From Burkholderia pyrrocinia (GTDB lineage Bacteria > Pseudomonadota > Gammaproteobacteria > Burkholderiales > Burkholderiaceae): a DNA stretch of 64,000 nucleotides. The stretch spans positions 1,860,001 to 1,924,000 of the forward strand of contig NZ_CP070978.1 of assembly GCF_018417535.1 (NCBI RefSeq). Direction: 5' to 3'. The notes beneath the pieces were generated by a model that had not been told where the DNA came from, did no database searches, and saw only the letters and a program-made list of their open reading frames with translations. The position numbers were made by a program, and so were the translations under genes. Below, one piece after another: positions 1 to 14,429 of the stretch (position 1 is the stretch's first letter; each line of letters starts with the position of its first letter).

Positions 1-968
1 TGCCGGACACCGCACCGCCGCCCGTCGCGCCGATCTTCGATCAGCCCGGCGTGCTGACGCCGAAGCACAAGTTCGTCGTCGAGCCGTCGTTCCAGTTCAA
101 CTATTCGTCGTCGAACCGCGTCGCACTCGTCGGCTACACGATCATCCCGGCGCTGCTGATCGGCCTGGTCGACGTGCGGGAAGTCAAGACGACCACGCTG
201 ACGGGCGCGGTCGCGGTGCGCTACGGGATCACCAACCGGATGGAAGTCGAAGTCCGCGTCCCCTATGTGTACTCGACGAACGACACGATCAGCCGCGAGA
301 TCTTCACCGGTACCGCCCAGGACAACGCGTTCAACAGCCACGGCAAAGGCCTCGGCGACGTCGAAATGACGCTGCGCTACCAGTTCAATACCGGCGGCCC
401 CGACAAGTTCTATTACATCGGCTGGCTGCGCTTCAAGACCGCCACCGGCAAGAGCCCGTTCGACGTCGTCACCGACTGCGTCACGCGCTGCGTCGGCAAT
501 GCCACCGGCACCGGCCTGCCGCTCGAGCAGCCGACGGGCTCCGGCTTCTATGCGGTCCAGCCGGGCCTCACGTGGCTGTTTCCGTCCGATCCGGTGGTGT
601 TCTTCGGCAACCTGAGCTATCTGCACAGCTTCAGCCGCGACAATCTCAGCCTCACGATTCGCGACGGACAAAAGGACTTCATCGGCAAAGTGCAGCCCGG
701 CGACATCTGGGGTTTCAATATCGGCATGGGCCTCGCGCTGAACGAGAAAGCGGCGGTGAGCCTCGGCTACGACCAGAGCATCGTGCTGCCCACGAAACAG
801 AACGGCCAGACGGTGCCCAGCTCGGTGCGCGTGATCCTCGGCTCGCTGCTCGTCGGTTACTCGTACCGGCTGTCGCCGAAGACCACGCTGAATCTTTCGA
901 TCGGCGCCGGCCTCACGCGCGACACCCCGGACGTGGTCATGACGCTGCGCGTGCCGTTTGCATTCTGA
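1..968 (+). CDS. Outer-membrane beta-barrel protein, FapF/phenol-MetA-like (5' partial)
   Basis: The frame is open from the window edge (first whole codon at base 3), so the N-terminus lies outside; a GTG at 51 is in frame but need not be the start because coding continues upstream of it (PDTAPPPVAPIFDQPG). The visible ~320 residues are alternating hydrophobic/polar strands with many aromatic residues and end in Phe (RVPFAF), the usual C-terminal signature of an outer-membrane barrel. The opening motif GVLTPKHKFVVEPSFQF is typical of the phenol_MetA_deg/FapF-like barrel group. It converges on a four-gene leftward locus containing a C39 peptidase, which suggests that it is the outer-membrane channel for those products. 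The family call is fairly firm; the FapF role is inference from context. Confidence 0.75.
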   Translation, partial: PDTAPPPVAPIFDQPGVLTPKHKFVVEPSFQFNYSSSNRVALVGYTIIPALLIGLVDVREVKTTTLTGAVAVRYGITNRMEVEVRVPYVYSTNDTISREIFTGTAQDNAFNSHGKGLGDVEMTLRYQFNTGGPDKFYYIGWLRFKTATGKSPFDVVTDCVTRCVGNATGTGLPLEQPTGSGFYAVQPGLTWLFPSDPVVFFGNLSYLHSFSRDNLSLTIRDGQKDFIGKVQPGDIWGFNIGMGLALNEKAAVSLGYDQSIVLPTKQNGQTVPSSVRVILGSLLVGYSYRLSPKTTLNLSIGAGLTRDTPDVVMTLRVPFAF

Positions 969-1073
969 TCGCCGGACGGCGCCGACGGCGGGCCGCGCGA
1001 CGCCCACCGGCCGGCGGGCCACTGCCCGCTCATCCGCCATTCATCGGTCGCTTACCGAGCCTTTATCGCCCCT

Positions 1074-1790
1074 TCATCGTCCCGGCAACGCGCCGATCAG
1101 CGCATTGTTCAGCGTCTGCATCACGTTCAGGTTCTTGAACGTCGACAGTGTGTTGACGGTCGTGTTGATCGTCGTCATCGCCTGGATTTGCTGGTTGTTC
1201 AACGTGTTCTGGATCACCGCGCCGGTCAGCGCCGGCAGCGCGGCGGGCTGCGCGGCGTTGGCGGCGCCAACCTGGATCAGTGCGCCCGCGTTCGCGGCCG
1301 CCAGTGCCTGCGCCTGTTGCGCAGTGATATGACTGATGTCCGGGATGTTGAAGCTGGTCGTCGTGACCAGATTGCCGTTCACGAACGCGACACGCGATAC
1401 CCCGAACGAAACCTTCAGGCCGCTCGGCAGATCGAAGCCGCCGCGCATCGCATCGAGGCGCGCGTCGCTGAGCGCGATCGCACCGGCTGCCGGCCAGTTC
1501 CGTTCGCGCTGCACGCCCCGCGGTTCCGAGGCCGGCGGCCCGGCCGCGCACTCCGCCATCGCGAGCGGCGCGGCACGCAGGATCGGTGCCACCCCGGCCC
1601 GCGACTCCGCGGGCGCCGTATCGGCGCCCGCGTTCGTGCCGGATGCCGGCGCGACGCCGCTGCTCGTCTGCGCGACAGGCTCGACGGTCGCGGCCGGCGC
1701 GCCGTCCTGCATCGCCGCCGCACTCACGGACGTCATCCCGCCGCACACCATCGCGGCGATGCCGGCGATCTTCCTGGTCTCGGATCTCAT
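1074..1790 (-). CDS. Sec-exported FapE-like protein with internal double-glycine site
   Basis: A 238-residue protein. The start at 1790 is preferred over an in-frame ATG 12 nt upstream because GAGGA lies just before it, 8 nt after the peptidase stop. Residues 1-25 form a Sec signal peptide; an Ala/Pro-rich linker follows. At 107-118 the sequence LSDARLDAMRGG matches the double-glycine consensus (LSxxxLxxxxGG) recognised by C39 peptidases. The ~120 residues after it are rich in Asn, Gln, Thr and Ala with a conserved-looking core (LPSGLKVSFGVSRVAFVNG), resembling FapE-type proteins as I recall them. It is the last gene of the leftward operon, directly after the C39 peptidase. Likely role: a surface or fibre component released by proteolysis. 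Export to the surface is not shown by sequence alone. Confidence 0.72.
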   Translation of the reverse strand: MRSETRKIAGIAAMVCGGMTSVSAAAMQDGAPAATVEPVAQTSSGVAPASGTNAGADTAPAESRAGVAPILRAAPLAMAECAAGPPASEPRGVQRERNWPAAGAIALSDARLDAMRGGFDLPSGLKVSFGVSRVAFVNGNLVTTTSFNIPDISHITAQQAQALAAANAGALIQVGAANAAQPAALPALTGAVIQNTLNNQQIQAMTTINTTVNTLSTFKNLNVMQTLNNALIGALPGR

Positions 1791-1798
1791 GACGGTCC

Positions 1799-2491
1799 TC
1801 AAAAGTCGCTCGGGCCGTGCTTCGGCATCACGACGTTGTACAGGCCGTCGCGGGCGATGCCGGTGTAGAGCGGTGCGCTGGGCGCGACGCGCCAGTCACG
1901 CGGGTCGTTGAACACCGCCAGCTCGGGCCGGTTGTGGATCACGAAAATCACATGGTCTTCCCACTTCTGCTCGAAACTCGCCAGCGACATCGGCCGCGTG
2001 CCGGTGGCCGGATCGCCGACGAGCACACGCCCGTCACGCAGCCCCTTCACGACCACGAAATGGTGATAGCCGTGCTCGGTGATCAACACGATCGCCGGCG
2101 TGTGCGTCTTGGCGAGCGTCTGCAACGGCAGCTCGAAGCCGTCCGCGACGAAGCCGTGCGCGTCGAGAAAACGCCGGATGTCGAGCAGCGAGAAGCCCTG
2201 CCGGCGGATCTTCTCCTGATTGCCGTTCTCCCACATCTGGGCGAAGGCGGTCTGCTCGGTCACCGGATAGTCATACTGATAAGTCAGCAGCGTCGCGACG
2301 GCAGCCGACCCGCAGCTGAAATCGAACTGCTGCTTGACGGTGCGCTTGAAGCGCGCTTCCTTGAGACTCGTGACGTGCATCGCATAGCCGGCGCCCGCCG
2401 GATCGACGACCGTCATCTCGTCCGCCTGTGCAGCCGGGCCGGATAGCGCGCACGCGAGCGCCGCGATGCACGCTGCGGCAACCTGTCTCAT
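1799..2491 (-). CDS. Periplasmic C39-family cysteine peptidase (FapD-like)
   Basis: A 230-residue protein with a Sec signal peptide (about residues 1-23, ending AQA) and a stand-alone C39 peptidase domain, without the ABC transporter parts found in bacteriocin exporters. The catalytic set is intact: Gln54, Cys60 (FDFSCGSAAV), His144 (GYHHFVVV) and Asp160 (VGDPATG). C39 enzymes cut after double-glycine motifs, and the two flanking genes both encode exported proteins with such a motif, so they are its probable substrates. In Pseudomonas the equivalent enzyme is FapD of the functional-amyloid operon. It starts 3 nt after the upstream gene's stop and ends 8 nt before the next start, so it sits in one operon with both. 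Family assignment is secure; substrates are inferred. Confidence 0.88.
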   Translation of the reverse strand: MRQVAAACIAALACALSGPAAQADEMTVVDPAGAGYAMHVTSLKEARFKRTVKQQFDFSCGSAAVATLLTYQYDYPVTEQTAFAQMWENGNQEKIRRQGFSLLDIRRFLDAHGFVADGFELPLQTLAKTHTPAIVLITEHGYHHFVVVKGLRDGRVLVGDPATGTRPMSLASFEQKWEDHVIFVIHNRPELAVFNDPRDWRVAPSAPLYTGIARDGLYNVVMPKHGPSDF

Positions 2492-2494
2492 CGC

Positions 2495-2983
2495 TCAGTT
2501 CCCGAAGCGCACGTTGAGCACCGTCGCGTTCTGAATCAGCACGTTCGCGCCGGTATTCTGGATGACCGTCGGCAGGCCGCTCGCATTGGCGAACGAGCCG
2601 TCGGCGATCGAATTCGAGCCGGTCGACACCCGGTTCGCCACGTTGTCGGTCACCGCGCCGGTCAGATAGTTCTGGCCGATCAGCGCATCGCCGCCCCGAT
2701 GCTCGTCGAGCTGGTCGGGCGACATCGCGACGCCGAAGCTGCCCGCTTGCGCGGTCGCGGCGCCGGTCGCAGGGGGTGTAGTTGTCGCAGGGGGTGCGAC
2801 GGCCGCGGCCGGATCGGCCTGATCCGCGCGTGCGGCGGGTAGGGAAGGGGCGGCTGCCGGCGCAACGCCGACGGTTGCCTCCACCGCAACGGTTTGCGAC
2901 CCGTCAGCCGTGGCATGGGCCGTCAGGCCCGGCAGCAGCGCCGCAGGCAATATCACCAGCGAAAGTGCCGTTCGGATTCGCAT
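2495..2983 (-). CDS. Sec-exported Asn-rich protein with internal double-glycine site
   Basis: A 162-residue protein. The start at 2983 is chosen because AAGGAGACAG precedes it and a signal peptide (LSLVILPAALLPGLTAHATA) follows at once; the frame extends 171 nt further upstream without coding signs. An Ala/Pro/Thr linker (30-80) precedes MSPDQLDEHRGG at 87-98, a second double-glycine motif with the same LDxxRGG core as the gene at 1074-1790. The last 64 residues are rich in Asn, Thr, Gly and Ile/Val (VIQNTGANVLIQNATVLNV), an amyloid-like composition. No known domain was recognised. It lies 3 nt upstream of the C39 peptidase gene. Probable role: a processed minor fibre subunit or nucleator, by analogy with Fap operons. 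Confidence 0.7.
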   Translation of the reverse strand: MRIRTALSLVILPAALLPGLTAHATADGSQTVAVEATVGVAPAAAPSLPAARADQADPAAAVAPPATTTPPATGAATAQAGSFGVAMSPDQLDEHRGGDALIGQNYLTGAVTDNVANRVSTGSNSIADGSFANASGLPTVIQNTGANVLIQNATVLNVRFGN

Positions 2984-3214
2984 GACTGTCTCCTTGGCCC
3001 CTGCGCGAGTTGGCTCGAACCCGGCGCACAGGGAGCGGAATCCGCGTGACCGTCGATCGACGGAAATCAGTCCGGCCCGCGCCAACGGGAGCGAGACGGC
3101 CGTTCGGCCATCCCGCCCTCGCCGGCAGTCCTGTCCATCGGCGATGGAACGCAAGCCGCGGGATCGCCTGCGCCCGCGTCAATGCATCCGGCTCGCCAGG
3201 ACCAGCCAGCCGTT

Positions 3215-4459
3215 CTAACGTCCTACGGTCAGGTTCGCCTGCACGGTCACAGCCTGCTGAACGAGCGACGCCATGCCGCTGTTCTGGTTGGCGACCATGA
3301 TGCCCGCCGCGGTCTGGCCGACGCTCGCCATCGCGTTGGACATGTTGAACGTCCCCGCGTTGACCGCATTGGCTCCGCCTGCGCCACCCGCACCGCCGAC
3401 CGCGCCGTTACCGACGCCGCCGTTGCCGGTGCCGCCTGCGCCGCCCGCGCCGCCCATCGCGCCTACCGCGCCGCTACCCGCGGTTGCGCTGCCGTTGCTG
3501 GCTGTCGTCGTCGCGCCGCCGTTCGTCGCGCTGCCGCCCGTGCCCGAGCCGCCGGCACCGCCGTTGCCCGCCGTGGCCGCCGCCGCGCCGCCGTTGCCGC
3601 CCGCCGCCGCACCCGAGCCGCCGGTGCCCGAGCCCGATCCGCCCGAAGCGGTCGACGTACCCGCCGACCCTGCGCCGCCGGTGCCGCTACCCGAGCCAGT
3701 GCCGGTACCCGTGCCGGTGCCGGTACCGCTGCCGGCCGATGCCGACGCGCTTCCGCTGCCATGATTCCTGGCCCACGCGGAACCGGGATCGGCTGTGCCG
3801 GTGCCGCCGCCCCAGCCTGTGCCGCTGCCCGTGCCGGCGCCGCCCACCCCGACCGAAGCCGCGATCGCGCCGCCGCCCTTGCCGGAGCCGTAGCCGCCGC
3901 TCGCAGTGGCATTGCCGCCACTCCCGCCGCTGGCGACAGGTGAACCGCCGGCTCCGCCGCCGCCGCCGTTGCCGGTGCCGGCCCTCGCGCTGCCATTGCT
4001 GGCGTTGCCCGCCGTGGCGCTGCCGTTATGCGCGCTGCCACCGCTGCCGCCGGCGCCGCCCGCGCCGCCGCCGCCGCCGTTACCGCCCGTGCCACCGTAG
4101 CCGTACCCGTTGCCGCCCTTGCCGCCGCTTCCGCCGGCCGCGCTGCCCGAGTTGGTCGCGTGGTTGCCGATGCCCCAGACCTGGACATTGCTCACGTACC
4201 CGTCGAGTTTGCTGATCGCGACGATCTTGGTGCTGTTGTACGAATCCTGATAGACGCTCGCGCCAGGCGAGACTTCATTTGCATTGGACCCGGTGCTGCT
4301 GGTCTGGCTTGAGCTGACTGCGTTGCTGAGAGTGTTCGATCCGTCATCGGCTTTCTGGCTGCATGTCGAACTGGTATCGCTGCTGCATGGATTCGCCATC
4401 GCGTAGCCGCTGCATCCCAAGGCGAGAAGCGCAGCGGACGCCAATAAAGTTTTACGCAT
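3215..4459 (-). CDS. Gly/Ala/Ser-rich secreted protein, candidate amyloid or adhesin major subunit
   Basis: A 414-residue protein starting at 4459 behind a perfect AGGAGG; the frame runs 381 nt further upstream but without a ribosome site. Residues 1-22 are a signal peptide ending AMA. Residues ~23-95 are polar, followed by about 260 residues of very low complexity (GGxGG, SGTG, NGSATAG) and a distinct last ~50 residues (NMSNAMASVGQTAAGIMVANQ, then a Gln/Val/Thr-rich end) that look folded. Charged residues are almost absent, as in structural surface proteins and amyloid subunits. It heads the leftward gene set, though 231 bases separate it from the next gene, so it may also have its own transcript. 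The central region contains a GT-dipeptide run encoded by hexanucleotide repeats. Fibre formation is inference from composition and neighbours. Confidence 0.75.
   Translation of the reverse strand: MRKTLLASAALLALGCSGYAMANPCSSDTSSTCSQKADDGSNTLSNAVSSSQTSSTGSNANEVSPGASVYQDSYNSTKIVAISKLDGYVSNVQVWGIGNHATNSGSAAGGSGGKGGNGYGYGGTGGNGGGGGAGGAGGSGGSAHNGSATAGNASNGSARAGTGNGGGGGAGGSPVASGGSGGNATASGGYGSGKGGGAIAASVGVGGAGTGSGTGWGGGTGTADPGSAWARNHGSGSASASAGSGTGTGTGTGTGSGSGTGGAGSAGTSTASGGSGSGTGGSGAAAGGNGGAAAATAGNGGAGGSGTGGSATNGGATTTASNGSATAGSGAVGAMGGAGGAGGTGNGGVGNGAVGGAGGAGGANAVNAGTFNMSNAMASVGQTAAGIMVANQNSGMASLVQQAVTVQANLTVGR
3696..3734. repeat. Imperfect hexanucleotide tandem repeat inside the Gly-rich gene
   Basis: Six-base units of the type CCGGTG/CCGGTA/CCCGTG follow one another for about 39 bases and encode a Gly-Thr run in the protein read on the minus strand. 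The period is a multiple of three, so slippage would change protein length without breaking the frame. Confidence 0.6.
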
Positions 4460-5147
4460 GAAATCCTCCTGAAGTAACGAGGAACGGTTGGCCGACCGCA
4501 CCAATCCGGACGACACCACGCATCGGCGATGCCAATCTCGCCAGCGGCATGACTGCAAAGAGACCGTTGGATGCTTCACACGACATGGCCCGACCCGCCC
4601 GATTCCGGCACGCGGTTTATGTTTCAAGTCTGAAACGTATTGATCGGCACGGTGCCGGGGCATCCGTGATGCGCGGATGGATTTCCCCTTTGTATTCAGA
4701 CGCTTGCCCGATCTTCCCAAGGCGGCCCCTGCAAGCGCGGCATGTTTCACTTTTGAGGCTGCCGTCCGGGCGCATCCGGGTATGCCTGCAGCGCCGGATA
4801 TTCGATCTCGATCGCAAACGCACGCCCGGCAAGGACGCACGCGAATTCATTCCGCCAAGTCGTTAAAAACCCGCATGAAGCGCCATTCAGAAATGTTTCG
4901 ACTGTGATAGGACGCTTTTTCTTCGGAACCTGTTAGCGGCGAGCGTTGGCGCGCGCGGGTCGGGTTATCGGCCGGAACGAGGATTCCGGCAGGCAGGCGC
5001 GATGGAATGGCGACGCAAATCCCGCTGCGGTGCACCGCACGGAACCCGTGGGCCGCCTGCGGTTCAATCGTGTGCGGGGTGCCCGCCGGCTGCCGCTCAA
5101 AACGCAGGCGGGGCACCCCGTGCTTCGTCGGCCGTTCTCGCGCCGGC
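4460..5147. other. Intergenic region upstream of the Gly-rich gene
   Basis: About 690 bases without a convincing gene. It must hold the promoter of the leftward Fap-like locus (nearest 4460) and the 3' end region of the betaine transporter operon (nearest 5147). A perfect dyad lies at 4621-4636. Open frames here have no good ribosome site and arginine/proline-heavy shadow composition. Confidence 0.6.
4621..4636. promoter_or_regulatory. Perfect dyad GTTTCA-N4-TGAAAC, candidate operator
   Basis: The sequence GTTTCAAGTCTGAAAC is a perfect 6-bp inverted repeat with a 4-base spacer. It lies about 165 bases upstream of the start of the Gly-rich gene in otherwise non-coding DNA, a suitable place for a regulator site. 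The cognate regulator is unknown. Confidence 0.4.
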
Positions 5148-5969
5148 TCAGTTCACGCTCGACCGCTTCTCGACGAACCGCCGCACATAATCGTCCGCCG
5201 GCCGCGACAGGATGTCGTCCGGCGTCCCGACCTGCACGAGCGTGCCGTCGCGCAGGATCGCGATCCGGTCGCCGATGCGCAGCGCCTCGTCGAGATCGTG
5301 CGTGATGAACACGATCGTCTTCGAAAGCGTCGCCTGCAGTTCGAGCAACTGATCCTGCATCTCGGTGCGGATCAGCGGATCGAGCGCAGAAAACGCCTCG
5401 TCCATCAGCAGCACGTCGGTGTCGGCCGCCAGCGCGCGCGCCAGCCCGACGCGCTGCCGCATCCCGCCCGACAACTCGTCAGGATAATGATCGCCGTAAC
5501 CGTCGAGCCCGACCTTCGTCAGCCAGTTGCGCGCCGCGTCGGCCGCGTCGTGCCGCTTTTCGCCGCGCGTGCGCAGCGCATACGCGGCGTTGTCGAGCAC
5601 GGTCTGGTGCGGCAGCAGCCCGAAGTTCTGGAACACCATGCTGACCTTGTAGCGGCGCAGCTCGCGCAGCCCGTGCGCGTCGAGCTTGATCACGTCGCTG
5701 CCGTCGATCACGATCTCGCCGGCCGTCGGCTCGATCAGCCGGTTGAAGTGCCGCACGAGCGTCGATTTCCCGGAGCCCGACAGCCCCATGATCACGAAGA
5801 TCTCGCCCGACTCGATGCCGAGACTCACGTCGTTGAGCCCGACGTTGCAGCCCGTTTCGGCCAGCACGTCGGCCTTGCGCTTGCCGGAACGCAGCAGGTC
5901 GAGCACGCGCGCATGCGCGGCCTGCGGCCCGAACAGCTTGTACACGTGTTTGACGTCGATGGTCGCCAT
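5148..5969 (-). CDS. proV: Quaternary-amine (betaine/choline) ABC transporter ATP-binding protein
   Basis: A 273-residue ABC ATPase. The start at 5969 follows GGAGG. Visible motifs are Walker [10 protein letters not shown], signature LSGGMRQR, Walker [13 protein letters not shown] and the switch His in FITHDLDEA. An N-terminal stretch (VYKLFGPQ, then a basic [15 protein letters not shown] segment) is characteristic of the OpuA/ProV subfamily. Full-length ProV ends in two CBS osmosensing domains of about 120 residues; here the protein stops soon after the ATPase domain, so ionic-strength gating by CBS domains is absent. It is the last gene of a leftward operon, 14 nt after the permease. Substrate is inferred from the subfamily: glycine betaine, choline or a related compound. 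Confidence 0.9.
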
Positions 5970-5983
5970 GTCTGCCTCCGTTC

Positions 5984-6949
5984 CTATGCGCGCGACGATT
6001 GCGTCGCCTGATTCGAATCGACGCCCGCCGACTGCGCCTTGCGCGGCAGCCGGTACGGCACGCGCGACGCGCCCTTCTGCCGGCGCTGCTGCGCGAGCCG
6101 GCGGCGCGCGCGCCGCTCCTGGCCGAAGCCCTGGCTGATCCGGTCGATCACGATCGCGAGGATCACGATGGCGAGGCCGGCCTGCGTGCCCTTGCCGACG
6201 TCGAGCGTCTGGATGCCCGCGAGCACGTCCTCGCCGAGCCCGCGCGAGCCGATCATCGACGCGATCACGACCATCGACAGCGCCATCATCGTCGTCTGAT
6301 TGATGCCGGCCATGATGCTCGGCCGTGCCAGCGGCAACTGCACGTTGACGAGCAGTTGCCAGCGCGTCGTGCCGAACGCGCGCGCGGCTTCCGTCACGTC
6401 CGGATCGACCTGGCGGATGCCGAGATCGGTCAGGCGGATCAGCGGCGGCAGCGCGTAGATGATCGTCGCGAGAATCGCGGGCACCTTGCCGAGGCCGAAC
6501 AACATCAGCACCGGAATCAGGTAGACGAAACTCGGCAGCGTCTGCATCACGTCGAGCACCGGCAGCAGCATCCGGCGCAGCCACGCGCTGCGCGACGCGA
6601 GGATGCCCAACGGCACGCCGAGCGCGACCGACAGCACCGTCGCGACGAGCATCAGCGCGAGCGTCTGCATCAGCTTGTCCCACAGGCCGAAGCAGCCGAT
6701 CGCGTAGAGCAGCAGCATGAAGAGCACGCCGAGGCCGATGCGGCGCGTCGCATTCCACGCGATCGCGCCGACGACCAGCAGCACGAGCCACGGCGGCGCC
6801 ACGCGCAGCACGCCTTCGAGCGGCACGAGCAGGTAGCGCAGCAGCATCGTGCTGAAGTGATGGAAGCTGTCGCCGTATTGCGCGACGAAAGTCTCGAGCG
6901 CGCTGTTCACCCAGTCGGCGATCGACAGGTGCAGAAAGAAGCCGTTCAT
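5984..6949 (-). CDS. proW: Quaternary-amine ABC transporter permease
   Basis: A 321-residue inner-membrane permease of the ProW/OpuAB type. There are at least six hydrophobic segments, beginning with [14 protein letters not shown], and the cytoplasmic coupling motif [20 protein letters not shown] that contacts the ATPase. The N-terminus carries an amphipathic segment before the first membrane span, as in ProW. The C-terminal ~45 residues are very basic ([15 protein letters not shown]) and probably cytoplasmic. It lies between the binding-protein gene (70 nt upstream) and the ATPase gene (14 nt downstream) in one operon. Confidence 0.9.
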
Positions 6950-7019
6950 GTTGAATCTCCGTCGCGCCGCGAAGGCGCGTGACGGCGACGGCAGGCGCGG
7001 GCCCGCCGCCGCGCGCAGG

Positions 7020-8057
7020 TTACGCGCCCTTCAGGCTGCCGGCGATCTTCTGTGCGACGTCGGCCGGCACCCACTGCTTCCACATGTCCTGGCGAGTTTT
7101 CAGGAACTGCGTGGCCATCGCCGCGCCGTCGATCTTCCTGGTCGTCATCTCGAGGATCGTCTGGTTCAGGAAGTCCATCGGAAAGCGCACCTTGCCGAAC
7201 ACGCCGACGAGATCGGGGTTCGCATCGGCGAACGGCTTCGACACGCCGACCGTCAGCCGCGACACCATGTACGACGACGCGCACTGGTGCGTGCTGCTCT
7301 CGTCGCGCAGCGTCTTCCAGCATGCTTCGTTATAGGCCGGCATCTTCAGTGCCGCGAACTTGTATTTCGCCATCAGCGCGGCCGGGCCCCAGTAATAGAA
7401 CACGATCGGCGCACCGCGCTGGTACGCGGACGCGATCGCCGCGTCGAGCGCCGCGCCCGTGCCCGGATGGAAGTTCGTGTACGTCTGGTCAAGCTTCAGC
7501 ACGCGCAACAGGCGCGTGTTCACGCGCTCGCAGTCCCAGCCCGTCGGGCAGTTCAGGAAGCGGCCCTTGTCCGGCTCCTCCTCGTCGGCGAACACCTGCT
7601 TGTACTTCGGCAGATCGTCGATCGACACGAGCCCCGGCGCGACCGGCTTGATGTTGCGCGCCGGATCGCCCTTCACCACGTATTCGGGCACGAACCAGCC
7701 TTCCGTCGTGCCGCCCGGCAGCGTGTCGCCGATCAGCTTCACGGCGCCCGACGCGACGGCCTTCGCGGTGATCTCGCTGCGGCCCGTCCACTGCTCGGCC
7801 CAGATCTGCAGGTCGTTGCGCGCGAGCGCCGTTTCCGTCGCGGCCGTGCTGCCCGGCACGACGTCGGTCTTGCAGCCGTAGCCCTTCTCCATGATCTGCC
7901 GCAACACCTCGGTCGCGAACGACCCGCTTTCCCACGTGATGCCCGCGAAATGGACCGTCTTGCCGTCGGCGCACGCGCCGCCGGCCGCGTGGGCCGCGGG
8001 CGCGGACAGGATCGCCGCGGCGGCGAGAAGGACCGTTTTCAGTCGTCGAATCTGCAT
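7020..8057 (-). CDS. proX: Periplasmic substrate-binding protein of the betaine/choline ABC transporter
   Basis: A 345-residue binding protein. The start at 8057 (MQIRRLKT) is preceded by GGAGA and followed by a signal peptide ending AHAAG; the frame extends 96 nt upstream but without coding signs. The OpuAC-type fold is suggested by FAGITWESGSFATEV near the mature N-terminus and by Trp/Tyr residues spread through the sequence (WAEQWTGR, FYYWGPAAL) that could form the aromatic cage for a trimethylammonium group. Four or more Cys residues are present (CADGK, GYGCKTD, LNCPTGWDCE), consistent with periplasmic disulfides. It is the first gene of the operon with permease and ATPase. The exact substrate cannot be read from sequence. 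Confidence 0.88.
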   Translation of the reverse strand: MQIRRLKTVLLAAAAILSAPAAHAAGGACADGKTVHFAGITWESGSFATEVLRQIMEKGYGCKTDVVPGSTAATETALARNDLQIWAEQWTGRSEITAKAVASGAVKLIGDTLPGGTTEGWFVPEYVVKGDPARNIKPVAPGLVSIDDLPKYKQVFADEEEPDKGRFLNCPTGWDCERVNTRLLRVLKLDQTYTNFHPGTGAALDAAIASAYQRGAPIVFYYWGPAALMAKYKFAALKMPAYNEACWKTLRDESSTHQCASSYMVSRLTVGVSKPFADANPDLVGVFGKVRFPMDFLNQTILEMTTRKIDGAAMATQFLKTRQDMWKQWVPADVAQKIAGSLKGA

Positions 8058-8629
8058 GGTGGGTCGTCTCCAAATCGAATCTGTTGTTTGTGCGTCGCGG
8101 CATGCGCGGCGACCGGCGAATCGCGTATCCCTCCACGTCCGGTCAGCCTGCATGTTTCAACCGCCAATTTGTTTAGGGAAACGAGTAATTCCGATCATTG
8201 CAATCGGCAGCGCCAATCGATCGCCGGACACCCCGTCAGGCCCGCCGGGCGGGCCTCGCGGCCGATTTTCCGAGACCGCGCACGGCCTGCAGCGGGCTGC
8301 GTCGCGCCCCCGTTCCGCCGTTGCCCGGCCGGCGTTGAACCGCGGCTGCGCGCACGCCGTTTCGGCTGTCGAAACCACCCGTCGCGCCCCCATCGGCGAT
8401 CCCGATCCCATCCATCGAAATTACTCGCTTTCGATTCCGTTTCGGCTTCGGAAGAATGCGCGGTGTCATCGGAGGAGACACGACCCGACACTGCCGGTCG
8501 CCGCGCCGCCGCGCATTGCGCGTTTCCGGCGCCGCGCGCGCTGCGCCGGGTCGCCCCGGATGACGGGACGCGCCTCGCCGGACGCGCTCACGACAACCGA
8601 TACAAGCTGGATACCCCGGAGATCTCTCA
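8058..8629. other. Divergent intergenic region, transporter operon / porin
   Basis: About 570 bases between two divergent starts. It should hold the promoters of the leftward transporter operon and the rightward porin gene. The section near 8150-8220 is AT-richer; the rest is GC-rich, and frames within it are arginine/proline-rich shadows. No RNA gene or clear dyad was recognised. Confidence 0.55.
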
Positions 8630-9781
8630 ATGAACAAGAAACTGACGGCGCTCGCCGTAACGGCCGCATTCGCGTCGCCCGCGTTCGCGCAAAGCAGCGT
8701 CACGCTGTACGGCGTGATCGACGAAGGCCTGAACTACACGAACAACGTCGGCACCGGCCACGTCTACGAGATGGCGAGCGGCTACGCGCAGGGCAGCCGC
8801 TGGGGCCTGAAGGGCAGCGAGGATCTCGGCGGCGGCATGAAGGCGATCTTCCAGCTCGAGAACGGCTTCGACGTGAACACCGGCCGGCTCAACCAGGGCG
8901 GCCGCATGTTCGGCCGCCAGGCGTACGTCGGCCTGAGCCAGGCACAGTACGGCACGCTGACGTTCGGCCGCCAGTACGACTCCGTCGTCGACTATCTCGC
9001 GCCGACCACCGCGAACGGCAACTGGGGCGGCTACCTGCTCGCGCACCCGTTCGACAACGACAACACCGACAACTCGTTCCGCCTCGACAACACGGTGAAG
9101 TACGCGAGCCCGAACTTCGGCGGCTTCCAGTTCGGCGGCGCGTACAGCTTCAGCAACAGCACGAGCTTCTCGGACAACCGCGCGTACAGCTTCGGCGCGC
9201 AATACCAGAACAACGGGCTGCTGATCGGCGCCGCGTACCTGCAGGCGAACCATCCGGGCAACGGTTCGGCCGGCGCGATCACCGCGAACGACGCGAGCTA
9301 CATCGCCGAGCGCATGCGCGTGTTCGGCGCGGGCATCAACTACACGTTCGGGCCCGCGACGGTCGGCTTCGCGTACACGAACTCGAACTACAAGAACCCG
9401 ACCGGCAACGGTTACCTCGGCACGCCGGGCGCGATCATCGCGCCGGGGGCGACGGTCAGCGCGATCAAGTACCAGAACTTCGAAGTGAACGGCTCGTACC
9501 AGATCACGCCGGCGTTCATGGTCGGCGCGCAGTACGTGCTGTCGCTCGAGAAGTACGACGCGTCGACCGGCGACGCGAAGCCGAAGATCCACTCGGTCGG
9601 GCTGATGGCCGACTACAACCTGTCGAAGCGCACCGACGTGTACGTGCAGGCCGCGTACCAGCACATCGCCGGCGACAAGACGAACTCGATCCTCGACCAG
9701 GCGTTCATCCCCGGCACCGACGCGCCGTCTTCGACGTCGAACCAGGTGGCCGTGCGTCTCGCGCTGCGCCACAAGTTCTGA
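8630..9781 (+). CDS. General porin, Gram-negative porin family 4
   Basis: A 383-residue outer-membrane porin. The signal peptide MNKKLTALAVTAAFASPAFA is followed by the family's standard mature start QSSVTLYGVIDEGLNY. Conserved porin stretches follow (SRWGLKGSEDLGGGMKAIFQ, FGRQAYVGLSQAQYGTLTFG), and the chain ends LALRHKF with a terminal Phe, the recognition signal for outer-membrane assembly. Length and features match the 16-stranded trimeric porins abundant in Burkholderia, which have many paralogues. It stands alone on the plus strand and is followed by a strong terminator. Function: passive diffusion of small solutes. Selectivity cannot be told from sequence. Confidence 0.95.
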   Translation: MNKKLTALAVTAAFASPAFAQSSVTLYGVIDEGLNYTNNVGTGHVYEMASGYAQGSRWGLKGSEDLGGGMKAIFQLENGFDVNTGRLNQGGRMFGRQAYVGLSQAQYGTLTFGRQYDSVVDYLAPTTANGNWGGYLLAHPFDNDNTDNSFRLDNTVKYASPNFGGFQFGGAYSFSNSTSFSDNRAYSFGAQYQNNGLLIGAAYLQANHPGNGSAGAITANDASYIAERMRVFGAGINYTFGPATVGFAYTNSNYKNPTGNGYLGTPGAIIAPGATVSAIKYQNFEVNGSYQITPAFMVGAQYVLSLEKYDASTGDAKPKIHSVGLMADYNLSKRTDVYVQAAYQHIAGDKTNSILDQAFIPGTDAPSSTSNQVAVRLALRHKF

Positions 9782-12242: not shown

Positions 12243-13004
12243 TCAATCCAGATAGTCCGCGTATTCCTTGTGCGCGTAGCCGGCGAGCGCCTGCCACGGC
12301 AACGGCTCGCGCCGCGCGGCAGGCACCTGCGTCAGCGTCAGCTTGCGCACCACGCGTCCGTCGGCACTGCGGTATTCGACCGACAGCGGCGCCTGCAACC
12401 GTTCGCTCCACAGAATCCGGTTCACGCCGCGCGCGCCGGGCGACTCGACCGCCTGCTCGTACCAGCGGGTGCCGGGCGCGTCGCCGCGCGTCGCCGCCGC
12501 GAGCCGCTTCAGTTGCGACGGCGGCGTGACGTAGTACGCGTTGTCCCACGAGCCGTCGAAGCCCGTGGTTTCGTACTCGGCCGGCGGCACGCTAACGACC
12601 GTCCGGGTCGCCGCGTCCACATACTCGATGCGCGCCGTCTTGCCGTCGTAGGTCACGTGCCGTGCGGCTGCCTGGAAGTTGAAGTGCTTGTGTCCGGCAT
12701 GGGCGGCGGCCGGCTGCACACCGGCACGCGGCGGGTCCTGGCGCACACGGCCCGCGTCGTGGTCATGGTCGTGATCGTGTTCGTCGCCATGACCGCCGCC
12801 CGCCGCCGCGACGGGCAGCACGCGCTCGACCCACACATGCCCGTCGCGCCGAACCATCCGTTCGCGGTACATCGTCGTGCGCGTCACGCCGTCGGCCGTC
12901 ACCGTGCGGCTTTCGTGCAGCAACACGGCGTCGAGATCCGCCGCCGCACCGGCGGGGAGCGCAGCCAGCCCGCAAGCGAGCGCGCAGAGAAGCTGGCGTT
13001 TCAT
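12243..13004 (-). CDS. Secreted protein with His/Asp-rich metal-binding stretch, phosphatase-associated
   Basis: A 253-residue protein of unknown family. Residues 1-21 are a signal peptide (ALPAGAAA). Residues ~72-108 contain a dense His/Asp cluster (HGDEHDHDHDHD, then HAGHKH), a typical zinc- or nickel-binding linker. The remainder (about 110-253) is mixed beta-like sequence with several Tyr/Trp residues. It lies 33 nt after the first alkaline phosphatase gene and in the same direction, so it is probably co-transcribed as the third gene. Because alkaline phosphatases need two Zn and one Mg, a metal-delivery or buffering role is attractive but is inference only. Confidence 0.75.
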   Translation of the reverse strand: MKRQLLCALACGLAALPAGAAADLDAVLLHESRTVTADGVTRTTMYRERMVRRDGHVWVERVLPVAAAGGGHGDEHDHDHDHDAGRVRQDPPRAGVQPAAAHAGHKHFNFQAAARHVTYDGKTARIEYVDAATRTVVSVPPAEYETTGFDGSWDNAYYVTPPSQLKRLAAATRGDAPGTRWYEQAVESPGARGVNRILWSERLQAPLSVEYRSADGRVVRKLTLTQVPAARREPLPWQALAGYAHKEYADYLD

Positions 13005-13037
13005 CGGAGGGTCCCGTTCGTCATGAAGTCGCCGGCC

Positions 13038-14429
13038 TCAGAAACCGAACGCCGAGCGCACGAGACCGAACACCTTCGTGTTGTCGATCGTGCCCTTGAA
13101 CGCCTTCGCGTCCGCGCCGTCGGCAAACAGCATCACGTCGCCGCCGCCGTGCGTCTCGGAGCCCGCACTGCCCATCCGCACGCCGACTTCCTGCAGGTAC
13201 GCCTCGTTCATCGCCGTGGCCGAATCGACCGACGCGCGCACGTTCGGCCGGTTCGCGCCATTGCCGAACACCAGCGTCGTGTAGGTATTGCCGTCGGCAT
13301 CCTTGCTCGGCTGGCCGTCGCGATAGTTGCGGCTGATGTCGAGAATCGGATTGCCGCGCTTCGAATAGCCGTTGATCGTCATCGTGTGGTCGTGGTCGGC
13401 CGTCACGACGATCAGCGTATTCGACAGGTCGACCTTCGACAGCGCGACGCGAATCGCTTCATCGAATGCCACCGTATCCTCGAGCGCGCGCTTCGCGTTG
13501 GTGCCGTGCAGCGCATGATCGATCCGGCCGCCTTCGACCATCAGGAAATAGCCGTTCGAGTTCTTCGACAGCACGTCGATCGCCTTCGACGTCATGTCCG
13601 CGAGGCTCGGCTGCGACGGCCCTTCGCCCTTGCCCGCGACGCGGTCCAGCTCGTACTCGAGATGGCTGGTCGAACTGAACAGGCCGACCAGCTTGCCGTT
13701 GCCGGCTTGAGCGAGCTGATCCTTCGTAGCCACGACCGTGTAGCCCTTCGCCTTCATCTCGTCGAGCAGGTTGCGCCCGTCCGCGCGGCCGCGCTTGTTC
13801 GCCACCGGATCGAACGGCGTCCAGTGATTGCGGCCGCCGCCCATCAGCACGTCGACGCCGTCGCCGAGCGCCGCGTTGTAGCCGGCACCGCCCGGCGCCG
13901 CCTGCGCGGCGATGTCGTACTGCGCGTCGCGGTGGCAAATGTGCGAATAGGTCGCGGCGGGCGTGGCGTGCGTGAGCTCGGTCGTCGTGATCGCACCAAC
14001 CGCCTTGCCGCGCGCCTTCGCCAGTTCCAGCAGCGTCGCGACCGGCTGGCCGTTGCCCGACGCGCAGTGGTTGACGGTCTTGTTGCCGTTGACGTCGCTG
14101 CCCGGCGCAACTGCGCGCGTGTCGGACGACATCGACAGCACTTCGTTGTTCATCTTCACGCCGGTCATGTACGCGGCCATCGACGGTGCGCTGTCGGTCG
14201 TCTGCGCGTCGTTCGAGAAGGTCTTGACGCGCGCGGTGCGGGCCAGCTTCTCCATCGTCAGTTGTCCCGACTCGCCGACCTTGTAGATCCGGCTCGCCGT
14301 CACGGTCGTCGGCCCCATGCCGTCGCCGAGAAAGAAAATCACGTTCTTCGCCTGGCCGGCGGCCTGCGCCGGGCCGCATGCGAAACCCACGACGGCCAAC
14401 GCAGCCGCGATGCACTTGATGGTCGACAT
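13038..14429 (-). CDS. Alkaline phosphatase, secreted
   Basis: A 463-residue PhoA-type alkaline phosphatase, releasing phosphate from monoesters in the periplasm or medium. Start at 14429 (MSTIKCIAAAL) is followed by a signal peptide ending AQAAG. Metal and catalytic motifs are IFFLGDGMG, the nucleophile motif DSAPSMAAYMTG, EGGRIDHALH, TADHDHT and SETHGGGDV. It is 32 nt downstream of a second, similar phosphatase gene; the two share most motifs, pointing to tandem duplication. Phosphate-starvation control would be expected, but no Pho box was identified by eye. Confidence 0.93.
   Translation of the reverse strand: MSTIKCIAAALAVVGFACGPAQAAGQAKNVIFFLGDGMGPTTVTASRIYKVGESGQLTMEKLARTARVKTFSNDAQTTDSAPSMAAYMTGVKMNNEVLSMSSDTRAVAPGSDVNGNKTVNHCASGNGQPVATLLELAKARGKAVGAITTTELTHATPAATYSHICHRDAQYDIAAQAAPGGAGYNAALGDGVDVLMGGGRNHWTPFDPVANKRGRADGRNLLDEMKAKGYTVVATKDQLAQAGNGKLVGLFSSTSHLEYELDRVAGKGEGPSQPSLADMTSKAIDVLSKNSNGYFLMVEGGRIDHALHGTNAKRALEDTVAFDEAIRVALSKVDLSNTLIVVTADHDHTMTINGYSKRGNPILDISRNYRDGQPSKDADGNTYTTLVFGNGANRPNVRASVDSATAMNEAYLQEVGVRMGSAGSETHGGGDVMLFADGADAKAFKGTIDNTKVFGLVRSAFGF

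Follow-up and report, generated by a model that had tools for sequence, protein, structure and literature searches.

Curli, the type VIII system, combines Sec export with an outer-membrane channel and N/Q-rich repeats. In the Fap functional-amyloid secretion system of Pseudomonas (fapABCDEF), by which amyloid proteins leave the cell for use in biofilm, an exported C39 peptidase (FapD) stands with a FapF-type channel, FapE and repeat-bearing proteins, among which FapB is a minor subunit of the fibres (PMC5557850); of 16 genera with fap, 6 are stated to lack FapA (PMC3792158). We analyzed a five-gene unit, written P5-P4-D-E-F, at the beginning of a 64,000-nucleotide stretch of Burkholderia pyrrocinia DNA (G000:C2:1860001-1924000, in a genome of 8.54 Mb on three contigs); this whole stretch is called the window. 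The unit is probably a divergent sister of the Fap system. An earlier note had proposed a divergent or new Fap-like secretion system, and the co-occurrence of the genes and the FapF and FapD matches given below support that proposal.

The unit shares with Pseudomonas Fap an exported C39 peptidase, a FapF-type channel, a FapE-like protein, FapB-related repeats, the gene order D then E, and probably regulation of the enhancer type. In contrast to Fap, its proteins match none of the FapA, FapB, FapC and FapE models, its likely major subunit is Gly-rich with one repeat, its predicted cleavage sites have GG whereas FapE has GR or GK, its peptidase lies on a separate branch, and in the Burkholderia unit the barrel gene is flipped. 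The putative Acinetobacter pilus system Fil also has a C39 peptidase and a barrel, but the Fil matches of the unit are weaker than its Fap matches, and the profiles of P4, P2 (protein E) and P5 had no match in the Acinetobacter locus (L054). The double-glycine leader peptidases of ABC exporters (PCAT) belong to the C39 family, and their leader consensus is found in E and P4; unlike them, the peptidase of the unit stands alone and is apparently exported by Sec, and none of the five genes encodes an ABC transporter. With curli the unit shares the outline of Sec export, outer-membrane channel and repeats, but its channel is FapF-like; curli components lay outside the searches made.

In the window, four minus-strand genes, P5 (3215..4459), P4 (2495..2983), D (1799..2491) and E (1074..1790), converge on the plus-strand barrel gene F (1..968), in agreement with the earlier note. 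P4 and D are separated by 3 bases and P5 and P4 by 231 bases. For E, the start was taken as the ATG at 1790; a possible alternative TTG start at 1802 would overlap the 3' end of D. Sec-type signals are apparently present on all five products, as judged by eye and, for P5, also by a rough pattern. The open reading frame (ORF) list shows no ABC transporter gene between the five genes.

The two genes that tie the unit most closely to Fap are those for the peptidase and the barrel; among family profiles, FapD and FapF were their best matches, both well under the equivalog cut-offs. D (230 amino acids) matched Pfam PF03412 with 72.6 bits, and among NCBIfam models it matched FapD (NF058616, E = 8.8e-39) and FilB (E = 2.1e-35). 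Its FapD score was 133 bits against a cut-off of 330, and the FapD of a Burkholderia fap locus (L043) was also under it, with 193. The D profile matched the double-glycine protease domain 6mpz (E = 1e-12). The intact Cys60, His144 and Asp160 reported in the earlier note were invariant, together with Gln54, in an alignment of 10 rows that included a Burkholderia FapD. These matches are strong grounds for regarding D as related to FapD.

The earlier reader saw the barrel without its N-terminus. The whole gene (L004 7601-8968) encodes 455 amino acids and, with the chosen GTG (L004 7601), starts 400 bases before the window; an earlier GTG, at L004 7559, is the start in the ORF list. F comprises an N-terminal helix (residues ∼31-83), a low-confidence linker and a barrel (∼155-455). 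Residues 141-455 matched the FapF structures 5o67, 5o65 and 5o68 in the Protein Data Bank (PDB; best E = 4.7e-28). Among NCBIfam models, F matched FapF (NF058560, E = 1.3e-41) and FilC (E = 1.2e-15). Its FapF score was 143 bits against a cut-off of 700, and the FapF of locus L043 again was under it, with 346. At E = 1, FilB and FilC were the only Fil matches in NCBIfam, where the presence of other Fil models was not checked. An AlphaFold model was made for the homologue in L056, which is 97% identical to the barrel part in the window; it had a mean predicted local distance difference test (pLDDT) score of 74, with a helix at 31-83 and strands from 158. In Foldseek, the top 18 matches of this model were all FapF entries (TMt 0.78-0.83), the best with E = 1.5e-20 and TMt 0.82, followed by the COG4313 channel 4rl8. 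Together with the homology, the model is strong evidence that F is a FapF homologue with a putative coiled-coil-like N-terminal helix and an outer-membrane barrel.

We analyzed the distribution of the unit in relatives by scanning named genomes with the peptidase alignment and keeping the best 80 of 581 confirmed loci, so that more distant peptidases are uncounted. All 80 of these peptidase-picked loci have P4 and E; F was found in 78 and P5, recognized by a P5-type C-terminus other than that of P4, in 72. A second set of 92 unit loci was obtained from 101 loci by removing seven fap, Fil or unassigned loci (L043-L048 and L054) and the duplicates L056 and L057; L055 from Aeromonas was never in it. 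Here the counts were 92 for the peptidase, 92 for P4, 91 for E, 89 for F and 79 for P5, with several of the misses near contig ends. Because the seven loci were dropped partly for having no P4 and E, the 80-locus count is the fair figure of co-occurrence. The order P4-D-E holds in the unit loci, and P5 precedes P4 in nearly all loci in which it was seen; the exceptions are L052, where an extra P5 separates P4 from D, and L053, which lacks E. Chance neighbours are ruled out as an explanation by this co-occurrence and order.

The earlier note had hinted that the opposite strand of the barrel marked a different system. This was not borne out. Of the 92 loci, 56 have the barrel gene collinear and downstream, 23 (among them the window) have it downstream but inverted, and 10 have it upstream and divergent; in 3 it was not found. 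The unit of the soil bacterium Cupriavidus metallidurans CH34 (L049) is a collinear one. In most loci the genes thus all lie on one strand, and the converging barrel seen here is a local rearrangement.

Within the best 80 of 581 loci, the hosts include Burkholderia, Paraburkholderia, Cupriavidus, Ralstonia, Massilia, Variovorax, Dyella, Luteibacter, Lysobacter and Pseudoxanthomonas, and the nearest named relative of D is a Burkholderia cepacia record (98%). The unit also occurs on replicons listed as plasmids in Photobacterium, Polymorphobacter and Croceicoccus, the latter two without a P5 profile match. The P4 profile finds the unit in 11 of the 65 genomes of the genus and, among 274 genomes sampled from the class, in 10 (the B. 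pyrrocinia genome is counted in both); the FapE model matched in 12 of 274 sampled from the class. The locus provides a Fap-type export system in a Burkholderia that, among named records, is nearest to one of B. cepacia. The B. cepacia complex is stated to have no fap genes (PMC3792158), and B. cepacia is listed among Fap carriers (PMC6173800).

Since FapD-, FapE- and FapF-like genes stand together, the locus could be taken for a true but eroded Burkholderia fap operon, but we consider this very improbable. Recognizable fap loci occur at separate places in five congeners (L043-L046 and the contig-end L048), the genomes G009 and G025 contain both the unit and fap, and G072 has a FapE match as well as the unit, which moreover is conserved far beyond Burkholderia. 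In a peptidase tree of 50 unit rows (thinned from 92), 16 fap rows and 2 others, the unit and fap peptidases lie on opposite sides of a branch with SH-aLRT 99; the exceptions are a FilB row that joins the unit side by a very long branch and the unassigned row L047 among fap. The separate fap loci and the tree disfavour erosion. The unit rows L052 and L053 are long-branched in this tree, and L126, labelled Candidatus Eremiobacteraeota, groups with Rhodanobacteraceae and is possibly a mis-binned contig. In L047 (9484-13337), a C39 and FapF-like pair stands near a sigma-54 activator gene, and the P4, E and P5 profiles matched nothing there; the pair is possibly another FapD-FapF branch.

The consensus of double-glycine leaders is L at -12, S at -11, L at -7, M or I at -4, and G at -2 and -1. 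The earlier note had pointed to double-glycine motifs in two exported neighbours of the peptidase, and both proved to be conserved. E (238 amino acids) and FapE have a common block (1389..1472, minus strand) with the predicted C39 site LSDARLDAMRGG, followed by F, where the cut would fall after residue 118, near base 1437. The motif in E is L-S-D-x-x-L-D-x-M-R-G-G-F; R, G and G were present in all 91 rows that span the site (22 of 113 rows are gapped there, and many rows are close relatives), and L-7 in 90 of 91. In P4 (162 amino acids), the site MSPDQLDEHRGG, followed by D, would be cut after residue 98, near base 2690; G-2 was found in 90 of 93 rows, G-1 in 88 (the rest being 2 R, 1 K and 2 gaps) and L-7 in 90. 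A stricter double-glycine pattern was found in 87 of 91 ORFs of E, 83 of 92 of P4 and none of 78 of P5. Thus, the catalytic residues are intact in D, and L-12, L-7, G-2 and G-1 are found in its putative substrates, as expected for double-glycine processing.

These sites may also bear on FapD. Its target is reported as unclear in PMC5557850, where FapE is suspected, its N-terminus being missing in vivo with no peptides seen from approximately the first 70 residues, and FapF is also considered. The same source states that Cys38 of FapD is required for Fap secretion and that Fap proteins have no canonical C39 sequences, though GG and GA motifs occur in FapE. At the same spacing as the RGG of E, FapE has [RT]G[RK] in 18 of 18 rows, a count made with a pattern that itself requires G and then R or K. 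The FapE motif starts at approximately residue 35-80 in 18 ORFs (118 in one apparently over-long ORF), and the cut is predicted 12 residues beyond this start; this position fits the absence of peptides from the first 70 residues. The alignment with E suggests that [RT]G[RK] is where FapD may cut. Because E and P4 keep GG where FapE has [RT]G[RK], a cut site can be predicted directly for the unit and for Fap alike. In the Burkholderia fap locus L043, a 133-amino-acid ORF upstream of FapA (12637-13038, minus strand) contains LDEDTLSRQRGR, with the spacing of the predicted C39 site.

The double-glycine sites in E and P4, and the relation of D to bacteriocin-type C39 domains, would also suit a microcin- or bacteriocin-like exporter that releases the C-terminal parts of P4 and E as peptide effectors. 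We find this hardly credible in view of the absence of ABC transporter genes between the five, the apparent Sec signals of the substrates, the FapB-type repeat in P4 and the FapF-like channel.

The exported proteins were compared with Fap proteins by running unit-locus profiles on 490 ORFs of fap loci, with one reversed and five shuffled sets as controls, all of which were empty. P4 has a single Fap-like repeat, SNSIADGSFANASGLPTVIQNTGANVLIQNATVLNV (2510..2617, minus strand), and the unit-only P4 profile matched the FapB of all 5 Burkholderia fap loci in the set (E = 2.3e-7 to 1.3e-4), a sixth FapB (E = 0.0079) and one FapE (E = 0.009). The E profile matched the FapE of L145 (E = 0.001) and L146 (E = 0.033). 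P5 (414 amino acids, 31% Gly) has a C-terminal repeat, MSNAMASVGQTAAGIMVANQNSGMASLVQQAVTVQANL (3230..3343, minus strand), related to that of P4, and its profile matched five FapB weakly (E = 0.009-0.074). The relatives of P5 have a signal-like N-terminus, a Gly-rich middle and a conserved C-terminal motif in common. The Gly-rich P5 gene is tandemly duplicated in six Paraburkholderia loci (L061 and L063-L067).

Profile-profile scores from hhalign were judged against 100 column permutations, with FapE represented only by rows above 130 bits (n = 18, several of them near-identical Burkholderia rows). E scored 34.3 against FapE (probability 63%), where the permutation maximum was 19.4 and none of the 100 scored as high; the likeness is in the N-terminal block at 1389..1472. 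Against the Fap repeat, P4 scored 21.0 (probability 46%) and P5 17.4 (probability 32%). Against FapE, P4 scored 19.2 (permutations ≤ 18.3) and P5 15.9 (≤ 13.7), both with probabilities < 3% and close to reversed FapE (15.4 and 15.1).

Clearer repeats were found in the relatives G086 (L149) and G232 (L156), where subunits with four copies occur in an equivalent gene setting (L149 3592-4503; L156 5257-6162 and 8657-9643, one of the two in L156 lying beyond E). A profile of the 12 repeats of L149 and L156 matched 6 of the 490 ORFs, all of them FapB (E = 1.5e-9 to 1.5e-4), found nothing in reversed or shuffled ORFs, and scored 25.5 against the Fap repeat (probability 86%, permutation maximum 16.2, none of the 100 as high). 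On the strength of the P4 profile, the L149/L156 profile and the alignment results, we regard the repeat of P4 and of the four-repeat subunits as a homologue of the FapB repeat. Taken alone, the P5 repeat offers modest evidence of kinship with the Fap repeat. E and P4 thus appear to be distant relatives of FapE and FapB, respectively. Since subunits with one repeat and others with four occur naturally, they can serve to ask what number of repeats is required for a fibre.

Several results weigh against the view of the unit as a sister of Fap. The NCBIfam models of FapA, FapB, FapC and FapE matched none of P2, P4 and P5 even at E = 1; Pfam also gave no match for these three at E = 1, and a PDB profile search gave none for P4 and only one at 0.79 for P2. 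The structure model of E was too poor for interpretation (mean pLDDT 47). In the comparison with the Fap repeat, one of the 100 permutations scored as high as P4 and one as high as P5, and E had no match (7.5, a score reached by 82 of the 100). When 7,019 ORFs of unit loci were searched with a 30-column Fap repeat profile, none matched; this same profile also missed the four-repeat subunits at E = 1e-3. There is no sigma-54 activator gene beside the locus in the window. The earlier note held that the Gly-rich 414-residue protein, P5, was unlike FapB and FapC. This stands as far as the family models are concerned, but not entirely, since its C-terminal repeat is weakly Fap-like. Where FapC is defined by three Fap repeats, P5 has one C-terminal repeat and no FapC model match, and FapA had no match among the five proteins of the window, to which that search was confined; the unit is therefore not filed as Fap. 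It would work like Fap and is best called a sister system.

P5 in the window and most of its relatives has one repeat and a long Gly-rich middle, and the P5 C-terminal profile also finds P4, so that the two proteins have a terminal motif in common. In addition, homologous FapD-FapF pairs are reported from five further phyla (PMC6173800). These observations would agree with a barrel-dependent exporter of a Gly-rich, non-amyloid surface protein, such as an adhesin or matrix protein, which shares the peptidase and channel of Fap and uses the terminal repeat merely as a signal for secretion or anchoring. We regard this as unlikely: the four-repeat subunits of L149 and L156 occupy the equivalent gene setting, and their repeat is related to that of FapB, a minor subunit of the Fap fibre (PMC5557850).

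Returning to the unit as a divergent sister of Fap, we infer a course of secretion, cleavage and amyloid formation, with P5 as the main fibre and control by sigma-54. Sec signals, as seen by inspection, would carry all five products to the periplasm, and F, by homology and the model, would form the outer-membrane barrel with its coiled-coil-like N-terminus. Periplasmic D, with its intact active site, would cut E and P4 after the conserved double-glycine leader; this would free their C-terminal parts and probably trigger export, a step already put forward for FapD and FapE. The fibre would consist mainly of the Gly-rich P5, which has one terminal repeat and no double-glycine site; P4 would be FapB-like, as a minor or nucleating subunit, and E would correspond to FapE. 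The secreted fibre would most likely serve in biofilm or attachment. We suggest more tentatively a wider pathway of Sec export, leader removal by a stand-alone periplasmic C39 peptidase and passage through a FapF-type barrel, in which the main cargo would be a Gly-rich single-repeat fibre protein and Pseudomonas Fap a specialized GR/GK branch; we do not hold this as the favoured view. Neither the five-gene unit nor a Gly-rich single-repeat functional amyloid was described in the parts of the open PMC literature that were searched.

We also examined the region upstream of P5. A motif scan found a sigma-54-like -24/-12 element, TGGCATCGCCGATGC, with 8 of 10 consensus positions (4520..4534, minus strand, 61-75 bases before the P5 start codon). 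In the 73 of the 92 unit loci with an identified P5 and enough upstream DNA, GG-N10-GC sites with ≥ 9 of 10 positions were found in 39, against a mean of 0.9 (maximum 4) in 20 local shuffles, and sites with ≥ 8 of 10 in 58, against a mean of 7.4 (maximum 14). The score was 8 in four of seven congener loci and 6 or 7 in the other three. A sigma-54 activator gene was present within the examined stretch of 23 of 114 loci (17 unit, 5 fap and 1 unassigned); these stretches are of unequal length, no more than 1.5 kb for 13 fap loci. Pseudomonas fap is under BrfA, an enhancer-binding protein that senses c-di-GMP (PMC13101488). Transcription is probably sigma-54 dependent in many relatives and here too. 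No sigma-70 promoters or terminators exceeding chance were found at the locus. Adjoining the unit, at 5148-8153, are look-alikes of a glycine betaine/proline-type ABC transporter (ATPase, permease and binding protein), as judged from the translations only, and a 383-amino-acid ORF at 8630-9781 on the plus strand is porin-like by inspection.

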